64,000 nt of DNA from Microbacterium sp. MYb54 (GTDB lineage Bacteria > Actinomycetota > Actinomycetes > Actinomycetales > Microbacteriaceae): positions 1 to 64,000 of the forward strand of contig NZ_PCPA01000007.1 in assembly GCF_002979515.1 (NCBI RefSeq), read 5' to 3'. Shown in pieces: positions 8,476-15,553 of the stretch; the stretch's first letter is position 1, and each line of letters begins with the position of its first letter. The notes beneath the pieces are model-generated. The model worked only from the letters and a program-made list of their open reading frames with translations, made no database searches and had not been told where the DNA came from. A program made the translations under genes and the position numbers.

Positions 8476-9621
8476 TCACGTCAGCGGCAGCGCCACCCGC
8501 ACCACCCATTCATCGCCCTCGATCGTCTGAGTGAACTCACCCCCGAGCAGACCGACCCTTTCTGCGAGGCGTGTCGTTCCGAATCCTCCAGAGGGCAGAC
8601 GGTTGCGCAGGCCCGTGACGCTGCGGCGATTTCGGACCTGCAGCGAGATGGTCTGCGCATCTGCTTCGACGCGAATGTGCACCGGCCCCTTCCGTCCGTG
8701 TTTCAAGACGTTCGTGGTGCTCTCACGCAGAACGCGTGCCAGAGCAGAATCCACCATGCGAGGCACGGGTTGCGAGAGATTTGAACTCACCGCCGGTGAA
8801 TATCCCGCAGTGCGCAACGTCGCCACCATGTCGGTCAGCGTCGTCTCGAAGTCTTCGATCCGCCCTGTCGGCACCTCGCCGTGGCCGGGTTCGATGAGCC
8901 GTCGAACGTCCCGAAGCGCGCGCCGCGCCGCGTCGCCGATCTCACGATGGATCTCGGCCCGCAGCACCGGATCGCCCTGACGCTCGACGACCCTGGCCTG
9001 CATCGCGATCGCTGTCAGGTCGTGCGCGATGACGTCGTGCAGTTCATCGGCGATCAGCAGACGCTCGTCACGACGGAGTTCCGCCATGACGGATTCCTGT
9101 TCTCGGGCAGCCGCGGCCAACCGCTGTTCACGGCCACGCGCAGAACGCATCAACATCCCTGCGGCGCCAGAGACCACCGCGATCAGAAGCCCGATCTCGA
9201 TGAAGACCGGCTCAGACGGTCGCAGCATGACGATCTTCGCCGCGCTCAACAGCAGCAGTCCGGCGAAGAAGATGATCACACGCGTGGATCCGGTTCTGAC
9301 TGCCACTCCTGTGGCCACGGCCAGTGCCGTGTATGCGGATCCATCCCACCCGGTGAGGAATGCGAGGACCATCGCCGCAGCAAACATGGCCACGGCGATC
9401 GGCGGCGAGACCAAGAACACGGCGAAGAGCCCCGTGACCATCAGGTCGAGCAGGACCGCGGGAGTGAACGAGTTGCCGAGAGCCGCCGTGAGCAGGATGG
9501 AGCCCATCGCGCCGCCGACGACCACGAGGAGGACCACGCGCTCGGCCATGTTCACCGGAGCGGGCCCTTCAAATGCGTGCGACGCGCTCGATGTCTGAAG
9601 GATGGTCCGCACGTTGCTCAC
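8476..9621 (-). CDS. NarL/DesK-type sensor histidine kinase, probable bacteriocin regulator
   Basis: A 381-aa membrane sensor kinase. Residues about 25-165 form four to six hydrophobic segments with no large extracytoplasmic domain, then a HisKA_3 dimerisation region with ELHDVIAHDLTAIA (phospho-acceptor His about 195), and an HATPase_c domain with the N-box in ESTTNVLKHGR and a GFGTTRLAERVGLLGG segment. It starts at a GTG (9621) with only a weak ribosome site. It is transcribed divergently from the bacteriocin genes, and the only NarL-type response regulator nearby is the last gene of that operon (12337-12996). Kinase and regulator are thus split around the peptides and immunity-type genes; the pairing is inferred from position and family. 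A membrane-embedded sensor of this type often senses envelope stress or peptides. Confidence 0.88.
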   Translation of the reverse strand: MSNVRTILQTSSASHAFEGPAPVNMAERVVLLVVVGGAMGSILLTAALGNSFTPAVLLDLMVTGLFAVFLVSPPIAVAMFAAAMVLAFLTGWDGSAYTALAVATGVAVRTGSTRVIIFFAGLLLLSAAKIVMLRPSEPVFIEIGLLIAVVSGAAGMLMRSARGREQRLAAAAREQESVMAELRRDERLLIADELHDVIAHDLTAIAMQARVVERQGDPVLRAEIHREIGDAARRALRDVRRLIEPGHGEVPTGRIEDFETTLTDMVATLRTAGYSPAVSSNLSQPVPRMVDSALARVLRESTTNVLKHGRKGPVHIRVEADAQTISLQVRNRRSVTGLRNRLPSGGFGTTRLAERVGLLGGEFTQTIEGDEWVVRVALPLT

Positions 9622-9923
9622 AGTCCATTATCGGGACATCATCCACCGGACACCGATATTCCGGTCGTCGGCCTCCCGTCCACTCGGAGCGTAGTCGCAT
9701 GTCCACACCCGCCGGTACTTTCGTACCTCTTCACGACGATTCGACCTCGTGATGCATTGCGATGACATACATTTGTACCGCGAACTTCGACTTTGATCCC
9801 CTTTAAGGCACACCGCGCAATCGCGCTCCTTTCTTCGTGTTAGCTTTTCGACGGTCAGGCGGCAGAAGAGCCTGGCAACAAAACTGCTCGAATGTCTCAC
9901 AGAAAGGAAGGGGGGGGGAATCT
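9622..9923. promoter_or_regulatory. Divergent regulatory region of the bacteriocin locus
   Basis: This 302-bp stretch has no gene and is clearly lower in GC than its surroundings. It holds an inverted repeat GGTAC-TTTC-GTACC at 9714-9727 and a further GTACC half-site at 9775-9779, candidate sites for the LuxR-type response regulator. TAGCTT at 9841-9846 could be a -10 element for the peptide operon; no convincing -35 is present, as expected for an activator-dependent promoter. A weak CAGGC/GCCTG stem lies at 9856-9874 in the presumed leader. All assignments are by eye. Confidence 0.45.
9904..9918 (+). promoter_or_regulatory. Ribosome binding site with a nine-G tract before bacteriocin 1
   Basis: AAGGAAG runs straight into a homopolymer of nine G (9910-9918), ending five bases before the ATG at 9924. 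The Shine-Dalgarno element and a slippage-prone tract are therefore the same sequence, so changes in G number would alter spacing and translation of the peptide. Confidence 0.55.
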
Positions 9924-10076
9924 ATGTGGTCATTTCTAGCCAAAATCGGCGGCGCGGGAGTGCGGGTCGTCAACTGGGCGCGAAACAATTGGGGCACGGT
10001 TCAGAAATGGATCGATGCCGGGAAGTCCATCGACTGGATCATCCGCACCATCAGCGGCATCATCGGCGGCGGGTGA
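9924..10076 (+). CDS. Leaderless class II bacteriocin, aureocin A53/lacticin Q-like (peptide 1)
   Basis: A 50-aa peptide with no signal or double-glycine leader. It has five Trp (2, 18, 23, 29, 38), net charge about +4, and alternating hydrophobic and basic residues expected to fold into amphipathic helices. The core WIDAGKSIDWIIRTISGIIG strongly resembles the lacticin Q/aureocin A53 pattern W-(L/I)-(N/D)-A/V-G-x-(A/S/T)-(I/L)-(D/E)-W recalled from the family. Such peptides are made without a leader and permeabilise membranes of Gram-positive competitors. The start is fixed by the strong AAGGAAG/G-tract ribosome site. It is the first gene of a run that continues with a second peptide, two bPH2 membrane proteins and a response regulator. 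Family membership is from sequence pattern; activity is inferred. Confidence 0.85.
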   Translation: MWSFLAKIGGAGVRVVNWARNNWGTVQKWIDAGKSIDWIIRTISGIIGGG

Positions 10077-10085
10077 CACGCAAAC

Positions 10086-10112
10086 GTCGCGAAAGCAAAT
10101 CTTTGTCGCGAC
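10086..10112 (+). other. Stem-loop between the two bacteriocin genes
   Basis: GTCGCGAAAG (10086-10095) pairs with CTTT (10101-10104) and CGCGAC (10107-10112), interrupted by a two-base GT bulge, loop CAAAT. It sits 10 nt after the first peptide stop and could stabilise the upstream message or set relative amounts of the two peptides. Confidence 0.5.
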
Positions 10113-10189
10113 TGTCCATCAACGCTTGCTCGGCATCGGCCAACGTGGACTCGGGTGTCGAAATAGAAAACGTAACGGAGAAACATTAA

Positions 10190-10336
10190 ATGGGTACAGT
10201 AATCAAGCTGGTCACAAAGTACGGTGCACAGGCCGTCGCTTGGGTGTGGAACAACTCGAAGCGCGTGGGCGAGATGCTGGCAAGAATGTCGCCTGAAGAA
10301 GTGGCGAGGGTTATCGCCCAAATGTTCGGCGGCTAA
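10190..10336 (+). CDS. Leaderless class II bacteriocin, second peptide of the locus
   Basis: A 48-aa cationic peptide (about +3), too short for standard ORF calling. It begins directly with the hydrophobic-basic pattern IKLVTKYGAQAVAWVWNN, which resembles the N-terminal half of lacticin Q/aureocin A53 (x-K-Y-G-x-x-A-V-x-W-x-W), and has no leader. The C-terminal half (EMLARMSPEEVARVIAQMF) is more acidic and differs from peptide 1. GGAG lies nine bases before the ATG. It is 113 bp downstream of peptide 1 and 75 bp upstream of the PH-domain genes. The two may act alone or as a synergistic multi-peptide bacteriocin like aureocin A70 or enterocin L50; which is unknown. Family call from pattern, activity inferred. 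Confidence 0.78.
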   Translation: MGTVIKLVTKYGAQAVAWVWNNSKRVGEMLARMSPEEVARVIAQMFGG

Positions 10337-10346
10337 ATCGATTCCG

Positions 10347-10380
10347 GGTGATGGCCTCGGGGTAGACTGAGGCCATCACC
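10347..10380 (+). terminator. Strong hairpin after the bacteriocin genes (terminator or attenuator)
   Basis: A perfect 12-bp inverted repeat, GGTGATGGCCTC at 10347-10358 and its complement at 10369-10380, with a ten-base loop. It starts 11 nt after the second peptide and lies 31 nt before the first PH-domain gene. There is no T-run, so partial termination giving high peptide and lower immunity-gene expression is the likeliest role. Confidence 0.7.
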
Positions 10381-10411
10381 ACCTACTCGACTCACAAAAG
10401 AAAGAAATCTG

Positions 10412-10864
10412 ATGCAATTGGCGCCCAAGGCCGTAGCCGTCGATATCTTGCGCGGGGCGATAGTGTGGGCGATACTCCTCATCGCTGCCGTCAGTCTGGT
10501 TCTCGGAATCCCGGCACTGCAGATCCCCGTCATATTCGCCGCTCTCGTACTCGCCGTGATCGTCCTGATCATCGAGCTCGCATGGCTGACGCCGGCCGCT
10601 GTGCGGAGCTTTCGCTATTCCGTCTCACCTGACGGAGTCCATACGTCGGCGGGCGTCATCTTCAGGCGAGAGAACTTCGTCCCCATGCAGCAGATCCTCA
10701 TCGTCGAGCGGCGCCAGGGACCGATCCTGCGGTCCTTCGGGCTGGTGAAGGTGCGGTTCCGGGTTCCCGGATCGTTTATCGACATCGACGGCGTCACGGA
10801 CGACGCCTTCGCCGTACTGCAACGAGAAGTCCGCTCGGCGCATGCTCCCGACGATCATGGTTGA
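10412..10864 (+). CDS. Bacterial PH-domain (bPH2, YdbS-like) membrane protein, putative bacteriocin immunity
   Basis: A 150-aa protein with two adjacent transmembrane helices (residues about 14-32 and 38-60) followed by one bPH2/DUF304 domain (YSVSPDGVHTSAGVIFRRENFVP, then VERRQGPILRSFGLVKVRFR). This is the YdbS architecture. In leaderless bacteriocin clusters such as aureocin A53 and enterocin DD14, pairs of such PH-domain proteins are linked to self-immunity and export. It lies directly downstream of the two peptides and is followed closely by the larger YdbT-like partner, the usual two-gene arrangement. A weak AAAGAAAG precedes the ATG. Role in immunity is inferred from family and context. 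It could alternatively be a general stress PH pair unrelated to the peptides. Confidence 0.82.
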   Translation: MQLAPKAVAVDILRGAIVWAILLIAAVSLVLGIPALQIPVIFAALVLAVIVLIIELAWLTPAAVRSFRYSVSPDGVHTSAGVIFRRENFVPMQQILIVERRQGPILRSFGLVKVRFRVPGSFIDIDGVTDDAFAVLQREVRSAHAPDDHG

Positions 10865-10880
10865 GAGGAACAGCCGTGTC

Positions 10881-12335
10881 ATGGTCGCGATCGTCTGCGT
10901 TCGCGCCCTCCTCGGCGGCACCCTCGGTCTCGGGGTCGCCCTTCTCATCAGCGCGCTGGTCGGCAAGACCGTACCGCTCGCCGTCTACCTGATCCTGATC
11001 GTCGGGTTCGTCGTGCGCCTCGTGCTCGCCGTGGCCGAGTGGCGAACCACGACGTATCAGGTCCTCGACTCCGAGCTCGTCTACCGGTCGGGGTACGTCA
11101 ACTCGAGTTCGTTGCAGGTTCCGTGGTCGAGCGTCCGGGGTGTGTACGTCGAAACGCCCTGGCTTCTGCGGCTGTTCGGGCGTTCGGAGCTCAGGGTCGC
11201 GCACGGCGCCGGGGAGACGAGCGACGTTCATTTCAAAGCGCTCTCTCCCGCAGCCATCGCTGAACTGCGCACCCGCATCGAGAGCAACCACTCCGCGGGT
11301 GCTCGCGAAGTGCGGTTCACAGACGACACCGAAGATTTCGCACGCGCCGATATCTGGCTGTACGCCTTCACGCATTCGCGGTGGTACGTCATCTTCCCCC
11401 TCGCCATCGCCGCAATCGGATTGCTCTCGCAGTTCCTGGAACGCGACATCATTCAGACTTCGCTCCATCTGTGGCAGTGGCTGACCCAGCTGCCGGTCGA
11501 GATGCTGATCGTCGTGCTGGCAGGCATGTGTGCACTGGCGGCGGCGGCGGGTGTCGTGTCCCGCCTGGTGGAGATGTCGAACTTCCGGATCCGTCAGACG
11601 GAGGAACTCATCGAGACCCGACAGGGACTGCTCTCGACGAGAACGCGAACGATCAACGCCGCGGACATCACCCTTCTCGATCTGCACCAGCCACTCCTCT
11701 TCCGTCTGGCTCGTCGCAGTATCGTTCGCGTGTCGGGCGGATCAGGTGAGGGAGACCCATCCAATTTCGTGTCACCTCATGCGACGGCGCAGGAAGCAAC
11801 GTCGGCGATTCGGAGAGTCTTCCGGAACCACGACGAAGGCACCCTTCTCGCTCGGTCGAGGATCTTCGGGCTGCTCACCCTCGGGGGCCTCTGGATCGGC
11901 GTGATCCTACTCATCCAGACATTGATCGGCACGGCCTGGTCGATTGCGGCAGGGGCGACTCTGATTGCCCTCGTCGCATTCTGGATCGTGCGCGCACCGA
12001 CGAGGCTCTTCCTCTCGCACGACGGCGTCGTGGAGATTCGTCGAGGAGTTCTGTTCCGCCGGAGACTTCTCTTCCGGGCGTCGTCGATCCTGTACTACGA
12101 ATCCGTCGTCAGCCCTGTGGGTCGATGGCTCCCTGCGAACAGGGCGAAGATCACTATCGCCGACAGAGGTACTCGTGACATCTCCGTGAGGGCCATCCCT
12201 CTGGCAGAGCTGCATGTGACGGTTCAGGCGCTCGCCCGGTTGGATGAGGTGGGGACGTATCGGTACAGCCGGATTCCCGAGATGATGGAGGACGCGACAG
12301 ACGACGTGCGCGATGATGTCGGCGCGATGGGATGA
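10881..12335 (+). CDS. Multi-PH-domain (YdbT-like) membrane protein, putative bacteriocin immunity
   Basis: A 484-aa protein of the YdbT type: paired transmembrane helices (about residues 5-50, 175-230 and 355-385) alternating with three bPH2 repeats, recognisable by LVYRSGYVNSSSLQVPW, LIETRQGLLSTRTRTINAADI and VVEIRRGVLFRRRLLFRASSI. It forms a pair with the preceding YdbS-like gene and together they probably protect the producer from, or help release, the leaderless peptides. In-frame ATGs at 10842 and 10857 would extend the protein and overlap the upstream gene; 10881 is preferred because AGAGGAA lies ten bases before it and the first membrane helix starts immediately. No ABC transporter gene is present, unlike many firmicute clusters of this kind. 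Confidence 0.82.
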   Translation: MVAIVCVRALLGGTLGLGVALLISALVGKTVPLAVYLILIVGFVVRLVLAVAEWRTTTYQVLDSELVYRSGYVNSSSLQVPWSSVRGVYVETPWLLRLFGRSELRVAHGAGETSDVHFKALSPAAIAELRTRIESNHSAGAREVRFTDDTEDFARADIWLYAFTHSRWYVIFPLAIAAIGLLSQFLERDIIQTSLHLWQWLTQLPVEMLIVVLAGMCALAAAAGVVSRLVEMSNFRIRQTEELIETRQGLLSTRTRTINAADITLLDLHQPLLFRLARRSIVRVSGGSGEGDPSNFVSPHATAQEATSAIRRVFRNHDEGTLLARSRIFGLLTLGGLWIGVILLIQTLIGTAWSIAAGATLIALVAFWIVRAPTRLFLSHDGVVEIRRGVLFRRRLLFRASSILYYESVVSPVGRWLPANRAKITIADRGTRDISVRAIPLAELHVTVQALARLDEVGTYRYSRIPEMMEDATDDVRDDVGAMG

Positions 12336-12336
12336 C

Positions 12337-12996
12337 ATGCGACCGATACGTGTAGTGATCGTCGACGACGATGCGCTGGTACGTCGCGCATTGAGGGTCT
12401 TCCTCGAGGATGCGGATGACATCGAGGTCGTCGCTGAGGCCCCGGACGGCATAGCCGGCGTCGCCCTCGTCGAGCAGCAGCGGCCCGACATCGTCCTCCT
12501 CGACATGCAGATGCCCCGTATGGGTGGCGTCCAAGCAGCGCACGAGATCGTTCGCACCGTCCCGAACGCCCGGATTCTGGCGATCACCACCTTCGGCTCC
12601 ATCGACATGATCCTGCCGATGCTTCGTGCTGGTGCGTCCGGCTATCTTCTGAAGGATGCCGAGCCCGAGGCGATCATCGACGCCGTCCGCCTTGTTCACG
12701 CGGGGGCCGCAGCGCTGTCCGCAGCGATCACCGCTCGCCTGATCGAAGCCGCTCAGACCGGTGGCGTCGAGACGACCGACGAGTTCCCCGACGGACACCT
12801 GCTGTCGGAACGGGAACACGAGACCCTCCTGCAACTGGCGCTCGGACGTTCGAACGCCGAGATCGCTCGGTCGATTCATGCGTCGGAGAGCACGGTGAAG
12901 ACGCATGTGAGCAGCATCATGGCCAAATGGCGAGTGAACAACCGTGTGCAGATCATCATTCGCGCGGCCCGTGGAGGGCTCGTCCGATTCGACTGA
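12337..12996 (+). CDS. NarL/FixJ-type response regulator, probable bacteriocin regulator
   Basis: A 219-aa two-domain response regulator. The receiver domain carries the acidic pocket VDDD (10-12) and the phospho-acceptor Asp56 in VLLDMQMPRMGG, the conserved Thr in ITTFG and Lys in YLLKDA. The C-terminal LuxR-type helix-turn-helix is LSEREHETLLQLALGRSNAEIAR to ESTVKTHVSSIM. It starts one base after the stop of the YdbT-like gene, so it is probably co-transcribed with the bacteriocin immunity genes. The only matching kinase is the divergent gene at 8476-9621. Being in its own target operon would give positive feedback; this is inference. A longer in-frame start at 12313 would overlap the upstream gene. 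Confidence 0.92.
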   Translation: MRPIRVVIVDDDALVRRALRVFLEDADDIEVVAEAPDGIAGVALVEQQRPDIVLLDMQMPRMGGVQAAHEIVRTVPNARILAITTFGSIDMILPMLRAGASGYLLKDAEPEAIIDAVRLVHAGAAALSAAITARLIEAAQTGGVETTDEFPDGHLLSEREHETLLQLALGRSNAEIARSIHASESTVKTHVSSIMAKWRVNNRVQIIIRAARGGLVRFD

Positions 12997-13050
12997 GGAC
13001 CACCGACCGCGCTCTCAGACCGCCCAGTTCGACGTCGACGGAAGCTGTCC

Positions 13051-13500
13051 TCACCCACCCCACACCGCCCGGGCGCCGGCCTCGCCGATGAGCACGACCA
13101 TGGCCGTGCTCCCCACGCCGCTCACCACAGCCAGTGCGGCCAGAATCATGCGCGCCGTCTTGCGAGGCCCCTCGCCGAAGCGGTACCAGCACCACTGCAC
13201 CGCGGCGACGACGAAAATCGCCAGCGCCCATGGCCACAGGAGCCCGCCGAGAGCCGCGTGATGGACGACGGCCGGCACCGGTCCGACCTGCTGGGCCAGT
13301 GCTTGACCGGCGAGCATGGTGATGGGCACGAGCACCAGCACGACCAGCGCGGCGATCGGCGTGACGATGCCGAGCCTCTTGCGCGCTGCGGGGAGGAGGG
13401 CGCCGAGGATAAGTGCCAGCGCGGTGAGCGGCACGAGGATGACCACCGCGTGCACGATGAGCGGATGCAGCGGGAGGCCGGCGATCTCGAAGAGGTCCAT
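13051..13500 (-). CDS. DUF2231-family integral membrane protein
   Basis: A 149-aa protein with four transmembrane helices. The N-terminus GLPLHPLIVHAVVILVPLTAL matches the DUF2231 pattern (conserved His in HPLIVH) and a second conserved His pair lies in VVHHAALGG. The family is unassigned but often sits near redox or haem-related membrane genes. It is divergent from the ECF sigma gene (92 bp between starts), so it may belong to that regulon. Start at 13500 places the HPLIVH helix near the N-terminus; in-frame ATGs at 13524 and 13548 are possible but would lengthen the protein without recognisable sequence. Confidence 0.8.
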   Translation of the reverse strand: MDLFEIAGLPLHPLIVHAVVILVPLTALALILGALLPAARKRLGIVTPIAALVVLVLVPITMLAGQALAQQVGPVPAVVHHAALGGLLWPWALAIFVVAAVQWCWYRFGEGPRKTARMILAALAVVSGVGSTAMVVLIGEAGARAVWGG

Positions 13501-13591
13501 ACTCAGGACACGGGATCGGATCATCCGAGGTTCAGATGAACTTCTCACCCTCCTGTCTCGTGTCTCCTGAGAAGACCGGAGGAGGTGGCGG

Positions 13592-14098
13592 ATGCCGAAG
13601 GATGATGCGGCACGACTGGGCGCACTCTACGACGCGCATGCCGCGCCGATCTGGCGCTACGTCGTGCACCTCACCGGAGATCGGGCGGGAGCCGACGACG
13701 TGGTCCAGGAGACCCTGCTGCGCGCCTGGCGGACCCCGCGCATCCTCGCCGACGATCCGGAGTCGACCCGTTCCTGGATGTACACCGTCGCTCGCCACCT
13801 GGTGGTGGACGAGGTGCGCAGTGCCCACCATCGCCGGGAGATCACGACAGACGAGCCTCCCGAGTCCGCCGTGCGAGACGCCACCGACGCGATCTTCGAT
13901 GCGATCCTCATCGAGGAGGCACTCTCCGCCCTCTCCGAGGCACATCGCGAGGTCGTGGTCCGCGCGTACTACCGAGGCCTCACCGTGTCGGAGATCTCCG
14001 ACGAGCTGACGATCCCCGAGGGAACCGTGAAGTCGAGGCTGCACTATGGCCTGCGCGCCCTCCGACTCGGGCTGCAGGAGAAGGGAGTGACGCGATGA
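13592..14098 (+). CDS. ECF RNA polymerase sigma factor
   Basis: A 168-aa sigma factor with region 2 (LYDAHAAPIWRYVVHLTGDRAGADDVVQETLLRAWRTP) and region 4 (ALSEAHREVVVRAYYRGLTVSEISDELTIPEGTVKSRLHYGLRALR). There are no extra domains. GGAGGAGG precedes the ATG. The stop overlaps the next ATG (ATGA), which is an anti-sigma gene, so the pair is translationally coupled. Sequence style is close to actinobacterial SigK/SigL-type factors, which respond to redox or envelope signals. Its regulon probably includes its own operon and possibly the divergent DUF2231 gene; no promoter was proven. Confidence 0.93.
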   Translation: MPKDDAARLGALYDAHAAPIWRYVVHLTGDRAGADDVVQETLLRAWRTPRILADDPESTRSWMYTVARHLVVDEVRSAHHRREITTDEPPESAVRDATDAIFDAILIEEALSALSEAHREVVVRAYYRGLTVSEISDELTIPEGTVKSRLHYGLRALRLGLQEKGVTR

Positions 14099-14787
14099 AC
14101 GCCGACCACGCGCGCTATGCCGACTGGGACGCCGCCTACGTGCTCGGAGCTCTCAGCGCCGCCGACCGCGCCGAGTACGAAGCGCATCTCGCGCAGTGCG
14201 CCGAGTGCCGTACCGCCATCGCGGAGATCGCACCGATGCCCGGCCTGCTCTCCCGCGTCACCCCAGAGCGGGCGGAATCGCTGCTGCGGGCACCGGAAGC
14301 CGAGACTCCGACCCCCGAGCACCGCGCACGAGTGCTCTCCCTCGCCGCCGAGCGCGCCCGCCGCCGTCGTCGCACGTGGGTCGCCGGCATCGCCGCGGCC
14401 GCGGCGATCGTCGTGGCCGCCGTAGCGGTGCCCGCGATCTCTGCCCAACTGCGTCCACCGTCGACCACGATCGCACTCGAGCAGCTTCGAGACGCGCCAT
14501 TGACTGCCTCCGTCAGTCTCACCGATGTCGCCTGGGGCACCCGACTCGACATGATCTGCGACTACGGCAGCGAAGGCGACGCTCCCGCTGACGGGTGGGC
14601 GTACGCACTGGTGGTGGTGAGCGACGACGGCACCGAGAGCGTGCTGTCGACCTGGCGGGCACACCCCGGCACCACCGCGCGCCTGAGCGCCGGCACCGAG
14701 CTCCCGGCATCCGATATCGCCGCCGTCGAGATCCGTGCCGTCGACTCCGGAACAGTGCTGATGCGGTCCTCGCTCGACGGATCGTGA
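14095..14787 (+). CDS. Zinc-finger-type anti-sigma factor (RskA-like)
   Basis: A 230-aa single-pass membrane protein that should sequester the upstream ECF sigma factor. The cytosolic N-terminus has the HxxxCxxC signature in HLAQCAEC, the anti-sigma domain fold, then an Arg-rich stretch and one transmembrane helix (about residues 97-118), leaving an extracytoplasmic anti-sigma-K-like C-terminal domain (PASDIAAVEIRAVDSG near the end). The ATG overlaps the sigma stop codon. A cell-surface signal would be transmitted through this protein, normally by regulated proteolysis; the signal is unknown. The following lipoprotein may be part of the sensing module or a target. Confidence 0.9.
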   Translation: MNADHARYADWDAAYVLGALSAADRAEYEAHLAQCAECRTAIAEIAPMPGLLSRVTPERAESLLRAPEAETPTPEHRARVLSLAAERARRRRRTWVAGIAAAAAIVVAAVAVPAISAQLRPPSTTIALEQLRDAPLTASVSLTDVAWGTRLDMICDYGSEGDAPADGWAYALVVVSDDGTESVLSTWRAHPGTTARLSAGTELPASDIAAVEIRAVDSGTVLMRSSLDGS

Positions 14788-14852
14788 ACCTTTCCCGTCT
14801 TCTTCTCGTGTCTTCCATGACCGCACCCGCGGTCCTGCACAGGAGGTTCACC

Positions 14853-15377
14853 ATGCTCTCGAGAGTCTCGAAGACCGCGGCCGTCGCCGCACTGCTCATC
14901 ACGTTCGCCGTCGCCGGATGCACGTCGACCGGCGGAGGTTCCGGTGGCACCACGGACGACACGGGCGGCGCCTACGGCCAGTCCTCGGAGTCGAGCGCTC
15001 CCACCTCGGGATCGGAGTCCGCCTCCGGCACGCTGATGACCGCGGATTCGGATCTCGGCGAGATCGTCGTCGATGCCGACGGGAAGACGCTCTACATGTT
15101 CGACAACGACACCCAGAGTTCGGGCAGGAGCTCGTGCACCGGCGAGTGCCTCACGAACTGGCCTCCGCTGACCGTTGAGAGCGACGCCCCCGCCGTGAAG
15201 GGAGTGACCGGCGAGCTCGGCACCATCACGACCGCCGACGGCTCCACGCAGGTGACTCTCAACGGCTGGCCGCTGTATTACTTCGCGGGAGACGCCGCCG
15301 CGGGAGACGTCAACGGCCAGGGCGTCGGCGGCATCTGGTGGGTGCTCTCCCCCGCCGGGGAACGCATGGGCGAGTGA
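14853..15377 (+). CDS. Lipoprotein with secreted PF03640-type repeats
   Basis: A 174-aa protein starting at an ATG preceded by AGGAGG. It has a lipoprotein signal with lipobox AVAGC, a Gly/Ser/Thr-rich linker (about residues 25-60), then two repeats of the COG4315/PF03640 type, recognised by LYMFDNDTQSSGRSSC...CLTNWPPL and LNGWPLYYFAGD..GQGVGGIWWVLSP. The two Cys may form a disulphide. The biochemical role of this family is unknown; it is common downstream of ECF sigma/anti-sigma pairs in Actinobacteria. Located 65 bp after the anti-sigma gene on the same strand, probably the same operon. Confidence 0.85.
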   Translation: MLSRVSKTAAVAALLITFAVAGCTSTGGGSGGTTDDTGGAYGQSSESSAPTSGSESASGTLMTADSDLGEIVVDADGKTLYMFDNDTQSSGRSSCTGECLTNWPPLTVESDAPAVKGVTGELGTITTADGSTQVTLNGWPLYYFAGDAAAGDVNGQGVGGIWWVLSPAGERMGE

Positions 15378-15553
15378 GCAGCCGTCTCGTCCTCACCTTC
15401 GGCGCATGCCGGCTTGGATTCGTCGGTCGAGGTCATCGAGTTCCGCGATCAGCTCCGACGCGACCGTGCGTATTCCCACTTATAGTCAATAAACAGGACT
15501 AAAGTGCGCGGTGTTCCCGCATTCGACACCACGCCAAGGCTCGGCCCGCGGAC
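15378..15553. other. Intergenic region between convergent lipoprotein and MFS genes
   Basis: This 176-bp stretch shows no coding potential and no clear terminator hairpin. It includes a small A/T-rich patch near 15475-15505. Confidence 0.5.

Follow-up and report, generated by a model that had tools for sequence, protein, structure and literature searches.

The locus analysed here lies on contig 43 of the 4.25-Mb genome of Microbacterium sp. MYb54, within a 64,000-nucleotide stretch of DNA (NZ_PCPA01000007.1, positions 1 to 64,000) referred to below as the window. It consists of a sensor histidine kinase gene on the reverse strand and a divergent run of forward genes in the order pep1, pep2, ydbS, ydbT and response regulator, the first two encoding short peptides of the aureocin A53 type of leaderless bacteriocins and the next two encoding membrane proteins with bPH2 domains (Table 1). 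The open reading frames (ORFs) listed in an earlier note on this DNA agree in their coordinates with the sequence; for the regulator, the ATG at 12337, located directly after the ydbT stop codon, is by alignment a more likely start than position 12313.

Table 1. Features of the leaderless-bacteriocin locus of Microbacterium sp. MYb54 (window coordinates)
Feature	Position	Strand	Characteristics
Sensor histidine kinase	8476..9621	-	381 aa, ~5 predicted membrane segments, HisKA_3, H-box ELHD, N-box RESTTN
Divergent intergenic region, kinase/pep1	9622..9923		
pep1, predicted leaderless aureocin A53-family bacteriocin	9924..10076	+	50 aa, four helices predicted
pep2, second aureocin A53-like peptide	10190..10336	+	48 aa, family match over residues 1-30
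Hairpin, pep2/bPH2 interval	10347..10380	+	12-nt perfect arms, 10 nt between them
YdbS-type bPH2 membrane protein	10412..10864	+	150 aa, two predicted membrane segments, one bPH_2
YdbT-type bPH2 membrane protein	10842..12335	+	497 aa, six predicted membrane segments, three bPH_2 stretches
NarL/LuxR-type response regulator	12313..12996	+	receiver intact, helix-turn-helix (HTH) signature MAKW

Both peptides exceeded the cut-off (27 bits) of the NCBIfam model NF033881 (aureocin_A53), pep1 with 48.5 bits (E 4.8e-13) and pep2 with 34.6 bits (E 1e-8); model position 1 coincided with residue 1 in both cases, i.e., no leader is present, and pep1 spanned the full profile. The Pfam model PF11758 was matched by pep2 with 30.7 bits, above its cut-off of 25. 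The best match among PDB sequences was lacticin Q for both peptides (E 3.5e-6 for pep1 and 0.0014 for pep2), epidermicin being matched by pep1 as well. The peptides are cationic, with five Trp, six Lys/Arg and two Asp/Glu residues in pep1 (net charge +4) and two Trp, six Lys/Arg and three Asp/Glu in pep2 (net charge +3), and the ATG codon of each gene is preceded by a Shine-Dalgarno (SD)-like stretch. AlphaFold2 predicted four helices for each of them (mean pLDDT 91.6 and 82.9, respectively), some of which exceeded shuffled sequences in amphipathicity. The Foldseek search of the PDB returned for pep1 four matches only, namely aureocin A53, lacticin Q, epidermicin and BacSp222 (query TM 0.72-0.79), and for pep2 aureocin A53 (TM 0.74) followed by four unrelated low-probability matches. 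The earlier note had assigned the locus to aureocin A53-type leaderless peptides accompanied by a YdbS/YdbT pair in an actinobacterium and had proposed the family and fold comparisons, which bore the assignment out: the family cut-off was exceeded twice, and aureocin A53 was the top structural match of both four-helix models. As regards its suggestion that the two peptides act jointly, a single observation bears on it, namely that adjacent genes encode two different peptides. A plasmid origin was considered and rejected, as 72,556 plasmid records gave no match to pep1 or pep2 at E 0.1. A run of nine G residues (9910-9918) stands just before the start codon of pep1, inside its SD region; it may change in length and thereby tune pep1 translation, or may reflect chance in a GC-rich genome.

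The aureocin family is rare in the bacteria surveyed, because of which the peptide matches can hardly be ascribed to chance. NF033881 matched in eight of 295 genomes of the genus (seven of them over the cut-off) and in none of 14 control genomes, while the wider, overlapping draws gave three of 398 genomes for the family, three of 394 for the class and one of 396 for the order, each count taking in MYb54. Every match from the genus-level and family-level draws, nine loci in addition to the window (L014-L020, L023 and L024), was compared with it; two class-level matches lie outside this comparison, one of them (L021) being known from its ORF list alone. Among the ten loci, the family search found two peptides in the window only.

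Adjoining the peptide genes are a protein with one PH domain and two membrane segments and a protein with three PH domains and six membrane segments, the segments being counted by a simple hydropathy scan. Genes for both YdbS and YdbT stand beside the peptide gene in all nine other Microbacteriaceae loci, as detected with models built from these same loci. The cassette YdbS scored 42-70 bits with the YdbS proteins of eight other cassettes and 35 bits with the copy on contig 45 of its own genome, and the cassette YdbT was nearer to the protein of the other locus than to the contig 45 copy in five comparisons of eight. Judging by these similarities, YdbS and YdbT most likely belong to the bacteriocin cassette. 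The contig 45 genes themselves (137.0-138.9 kb) form a second YdbT/YdbS-type pair, which nothing seen ties to a bacteriocin; a single further bPH_2 match of this genome is on contig 4, and a contig scan with the 497-aa YdbT-type protein as query found nothing. Homologues of YdbS and YdbT are known as Orf7/Orf8 of aureocin A53 and LnqC/LnqD of lacticin Q, and in enterocin DD14 the corresponding pair DdE/DdF is required for export, its loss leading to toxic accumulation of the bacteriocin (PMC8657885; this and the other PMC-numbered papers are cited from parts of their text).

No ATP-binding cassette (ABC) transporter gene occurs within the run from kinase to regulator. The description of the system as minimal and lacking an ABC transporter thus holds for this run but not in general, as an ABC ATPase was found at six of the nine other Microbacteriaceae loci: L014, L015 and L017 from ORF lists (confirmed by Pfam for L015), and L019, L023 and L024 by Pfam, L016, L018 and L020 being covered by one non-bPH2 neighbour each, so that absence there is not implied.

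Both the kinase and the regulator retain intact motifs, with the H-box, N-box, receiver and HTH all present. The regulator carries in its HTH the signature M-x-K-W, where most NarL proteins of the MYb54 genome have x-K-L; Lys-Trp (hereafter K-W) was found in two of the 11 readable regulators of this genome, that of the window and one on contig 41. Because its gene starts directly after the stop codon of ydbT, the regulator is probably co-transcribed with the cassette. The NarL-type regulator that the earlier note saw at the end of the run has counterparts at other loci: a full-length K-W regulator stands beside the peptide in seven of the nine other Microbacteriaceae aureocin loci; within the whole set of ten, the signature is carried by the window, these seven proteins and a fragment at L020. 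The window regulator and those of L014-L017 have an intact receiver. At L018, L019 and L024 (Leifsonia sp. ALI-44-B) the receiver looks degenerate and no kinase was found beside the regulator, which in these three cases is, judging by its sequence, apparently phosphorylation-independent. Linkage of the regulator is thus more constant at aureocin loci than the phosphorelay.

The K-W family extends far beyond bacteriocin loci. At E 1e-30, a profile of the aureocin-locus regulators gave matches, some of them to generic NarL proteins, in 247 of 247 genomes of the genus. The set of non-aureocin pairs was made up of 80 places from the upper part of the profile list, three found via kinase search and the contig 41 pair, minus two duplicates, which gave 82 pairs (L065, L102-L141, L160-L162 and L164-L203, L065 being the MYb54 contig 41 pair at ~19.8-21.8 kb). 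All 82 pairs fetched include a divergent kinase; no YdbT-like gene accompanies any of them, no aureocin peptide rises above noise, and one has a weak YdbS-like match. K-W as a bacteriocin-specific marker was accordingly discarded, KW or RW being present in 78 of the 82 pairs and the other four being unread by the pattern. In a 53-row tree the window regulator grouped with that of G087 (100/100), a relative considered below. The idea that the regulators linked to bacteriocins arose once was likewise rejected, for on the tree this label must have been gained or lost at least four times, L018, L019 and L024 standing on long branches. Aureocin-like peptides have thus, as far as the tree can tell, become linked to such kinase/regulator systems more than once.

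Some members of this set have other neighbours. L102 (G056) and L103 (G232) combine a regulator and a divergent kinase with genes that by eye are ABC ATPase-like and permease-like, resembling L014/L015, and have no peptide or bPH2 genes; they possibly represent an orphan resistance module. At L160 (G059) a PadR-like regulator and a membrane protein, and at L162 (G097) secreted-looking, sigma-like and membrane proteins (all named by eye), lie between the kinase and the regulator, and the gap between the two genes may be a recurrent place of insertion.

The gaps between kinase and regulator mostly carry a tiny ATG gene on the kinase strand, preceded by a strong SD sequence and encoding an aromatic product of 11-32 residues, e.g., MTFWQQVGKFFGLVR. 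One fixed pattern detected such a mini-gene at 65 of the 82 non-aureocin loci; searched on the opposite strand, none of the 82 gave a match. Inspection by eye revealed the gene at nine of the 17 loci that the pattern missed (ten if a GTG-start case is counted). Because the pattern was drawn up after the peptides had been seen, the controls outweigh this count. In 50 resamples the pattern occurred at 0.22 of 82 loci on average and at two at most; it was present upstream of 57 of 80 family kinases vs none of seven low-scoring kinases, and upstream of one of 1,038 other ORFs, a control that includes no middle-score kinase and whose only hit (L135) was the same mini-gene. The products include a 15-residue class beginning M(T/S/P)FW, the 13-residue MWYWLGQLIGIWK and a C-x5-C class ending in LCRLLGLCS. 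In one class (26 distinct sequences from 29 loci, taken with an earlier selector that kept 48 of the 82 loci and was later replaced by the fixed pattern) second codon positions were conserved, with 718 differences vs 1,635 and 1,661 at the other positions; the codon changes of the same class, 674 synonymous and 1,785 non-synonymous, do not by themselves show constraint. None of four mini-peptides was clearly above shuffled sequences in amphipathicity. L162 retains its mini-gene despite the 3.4 kb of other genes separating kinase and regulator. None was found at G087, L102-L104, L160, L161 and L164, and the gaps of L014-L016, which are short, had none either. A draw of 65 genomes of the family revealed K-W regulators in two other genera, with a C-x5-C peptide near the regulator in G350 and none of such kind in G345. 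From its position and sequence, the mini-gene is a candidate for either a leaderless signal peptide or a leader peptide regulating translation of the kinase.

The genome G087 shows what the locus looks like with no cassette. Here a kinase/regulator pair lies beside the same major facilitator superfamily (MFS) and purF genes, the proteins of which are 86% and 97% identical to those of the window; at the DNA level, BLASTN identity to the window is 71.5% in the kinase, 76% in the regulator and 86% in the MFS-purF block. About 145 bases take the place of window positions 9633-12333 and about 41 the place of 12997-15553; the alignment therefore puts the cassette in the space between the start sites of kinase and regulator. 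The second interval, which separates the regulator from the MFS gene in the window and is not part of the G087 arrangement, encodes a DUF2231 protein and, named by eye, sigma-factor-like, anti-sigma-like and lipoprotein-like products. The acquisition proposed in the earlier note from locally lower GC is supported by this cassette-free relative but not by composition alone. Indeed, GC falls to 54% around the peptides, yet the drop is not confined to their genes: GC at third codon positions is also low in the kinase and regulator (0.77), vs 0.80-0.91 in the flanking genes, and this pair exists with no cassette in G087, where the corresponding values are 0.86 and 0.90.

In the intergenic DNA, a sigma-70 scan gave no match in 9622-9923, upstream of pep1. 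A shared operator was sought and rejected, no k-mer being clear of shuffled sequences among the gaps; two dyads recur within L106-L121, in 12 and 8, respectively, of the 44 gaps that entered the comparison; the window has neither dyad. The interval 10334-10411 has a folding energy of -32.5 kcal/mol (z -5.9), with no T run after the hairpin. The position of this hairpin, between pep2 and the exporter genes, is comparable to that of a terminator by which LsbB is reported to be regulated (PMC6249370).

By their properties (~50 residues, leaderless, Trp-containing, cationic, with four helices, here predicted) the peptides resemble aureocin A53, lacticin Q and epidermicin NI01, whereas the window run, unlike that group, lacks an ABC gene. 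Control differs as well: the window has a kinase and a regulator, where lacticin Q has the TetR-type LnqR (PMC6131525) and aureocin A53 no obvious regulator according to the portion of PMC11580447 cited. Similar gene content is found in the enterocin DD14 cluster (ddABCDEFGHIJ), with two leaderless peptides and a bPH2 pair of 141 and 458 aa (150 and 497 aa here) with two and six membrane segments, here predicted (PMC8657885). Enterocin DD14, however, has the ABC genes ddHIJ, and immunity is given by DdD (PMC13262744); in the cited parts of PMC8657885 and PMC13262744 no kinase or regulator is described for it. Hourigan et al. (2024) reported multi-peptide aureocin-like operons in Microbacterium, which accounts for seven of the eight actinobacterial multi-peptide cases (PMC11580447), and the MYb54 genome may itself be within that survey. 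Also described there is a Brevilactibacter cluster with two peptides, a PH protein, an ABC system and a DNA-binding response regulator (PMC11580447). The terms 'histidine kinase' and 'two-component' have no occurrences in the main text of PMC11580447, and the parts cited describe neither a cassette between kinase and regulator nor a mini-peptide family. In searches of the open-licence literature on Microbacterium, Microbacteriaceae and Actinobacteria, none of the titles and abstract openings seen describes the K-W family or the mini-genes. Given the operons reported in PMC11580447, the bacteriocin part is not new in kind; the signalling link looks new.

Taken together, these data make it fairly probable, in our judgment, that the window harbours a self-inducing leaderless-bacteriocin operon with export by YdbS/YdbT and linked two-component control. 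Pep1 and pep2 would be made in active form and would attack the membranes of Gram-positive competitors, while YdbS and YdbT would export them and provide self-protection in an operon that has no ABC transporter dedicated to this task. The hairpin downstream of pep2 would keep the peptides more strongly expressed than the transporter genes. As the regulator is last in the run and the kinase is divergent, phosphotransfer to the regulator and its action on the promoters of the locus would raise the peptides, the exporter and the regulator itself together, in a positive feedback loop. The kinase would respond to some membrane-active peptide, in this case probably one encoded by the operon itself; a peptide is its most likely stimulus because the Microbacteriaceae family of this pair mostly sits beside the gene of a much shorter leaderless peptide. 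The best reading of the sequences is that leaderless bacteriocins became both the linked peptide and the output of a peptide-linked two-component family. Only tentatively, as a possibility rather than an expectation, do we put forward the broader view that the K-W family is an undescribed kind of peptide signalling with very short leaderless signals, which bacteriocin operons joined repeatedly, so that the bacteriocin of the window would be both weapon and inducer. Such logic of peptide, kinase and regulator would be similar to the three-component quorum sensing of bacteriocin systems in lactic acid bacteria. The latter uses a processed pheromone, whereas here the proteins are of the HisKA_3 and NarL types and the peptides are leaderless.

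A number of observations weigh against the self-inducing operon. On the side of the peptides, pep1 stays 0.5 bits under the PF11758 cut-off (24.5 of 25), the family match of pep2 ends at residue 30 in both libraries, leaving its C-terminal half unmatched, and the Foldseek E values are weak (0.065 for pep1 and 0.8 for pep2, none reaching 0.001). The window's own kinase has no mini-gene, and the comparison with the gaps of relatives revealed no operator tied to the window. Most K-W regulators were found with no bacteriocin genes, so that the presence of one is by itself no sign of bacteriocin control; that of the window shows 47% identity to the paralogue on contig 41 and 25-43% to the other aureocin-locus regulators. 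L023 lacks a K-W regulator, and at L020 only a 56-codon HTH piece with the signature was seen. The L018 receiver is unmatched, that of L019 scores 24.0 bits, under the cut-off of 30.2, and that of L024, which at 43.9 bits is over it, nevertheless has Gly at the phospho-Asp column. The 'matching kinase' of the earlier note is present here but is no general feature, a divergent kinase occurring at only three of the nine other aureocin loci. Finally, in the single cassette-free genome compared, exchange of the whole block appears as possible as insertion of the cassette, because the pair is more diverged than its flank, has lower third-position GC in the window and has a different left flank.

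It could be supposed that the kinase senses envelope damage caused by any membrane-active compound, in a Lia/Vra-like manner, and turns on the bPH2 pair as a resistance module with which the bacteriocin genes travel, their output not being controlled by cell density. LiaRS and VraRS have the general architecture of a HisKA_3 kinase with a NarL-type regulator, which the pair of the window fits. Enterococcus faecium becomes resistant to aureocin A53-like bacteriocins through LiaFSR mutations (PMC10269926), and G056 and G232 have the pair with ABC-like genes alone. The kinase also shows weak similarity to LiaS (16.9 bits of the required 450) and MadS (20.5 of 500), as does the regulator to MadR (141.9 of 300), but these scores lie far under the cut-offs; a Pfam scan of seven window proteins showed no LiaF, no search aimed at LiaF having been made. 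Considering, in addition, that a short peptide gene is tied to the family in most copies fetched, we regard such a general stress sensor as rather unlikely.

The pair standing alone beside MFS-purF in G087, together with the other genes between its halves in G059 and G097, would suit a resident bystander, between the halves of which the cassette landed with a constitutive promoter of its own. The probable co-transcription of the regulator and the recurrence of K-W regulators at aureocin loci of other species, in different gene orders, speak against this, and we consider it improbable. Less probable still, to the point of being very doubtful, is a decayed or silent cluster in which pep2 no longer has the C-terminal features of its family and no active bacteriocin is made: the restricted match of pep2 and the empty sigma-70 scan upstream of pep1 would agree with it, while all frames are open, pep1 fills the family profile, the motifs of both signalling proteins are preserved, and the predicted structure of pep2 retains four helices and has aureocin A53 as its top match.

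In leaderless producers the timing of production, export and self-protection is said to be poorly understood (PMC13262744), and according to a review leaderless bacteriocins have no common regulatory mechanism (PMC6131525). The self-inducing operon proposed here, being compact, would make it possible to test directly whether a leaderless peptide acts as its own inducer, and the K-W pairs with their minute peptide genes are a candidate system for signalling between cells of a common actinobacterium.

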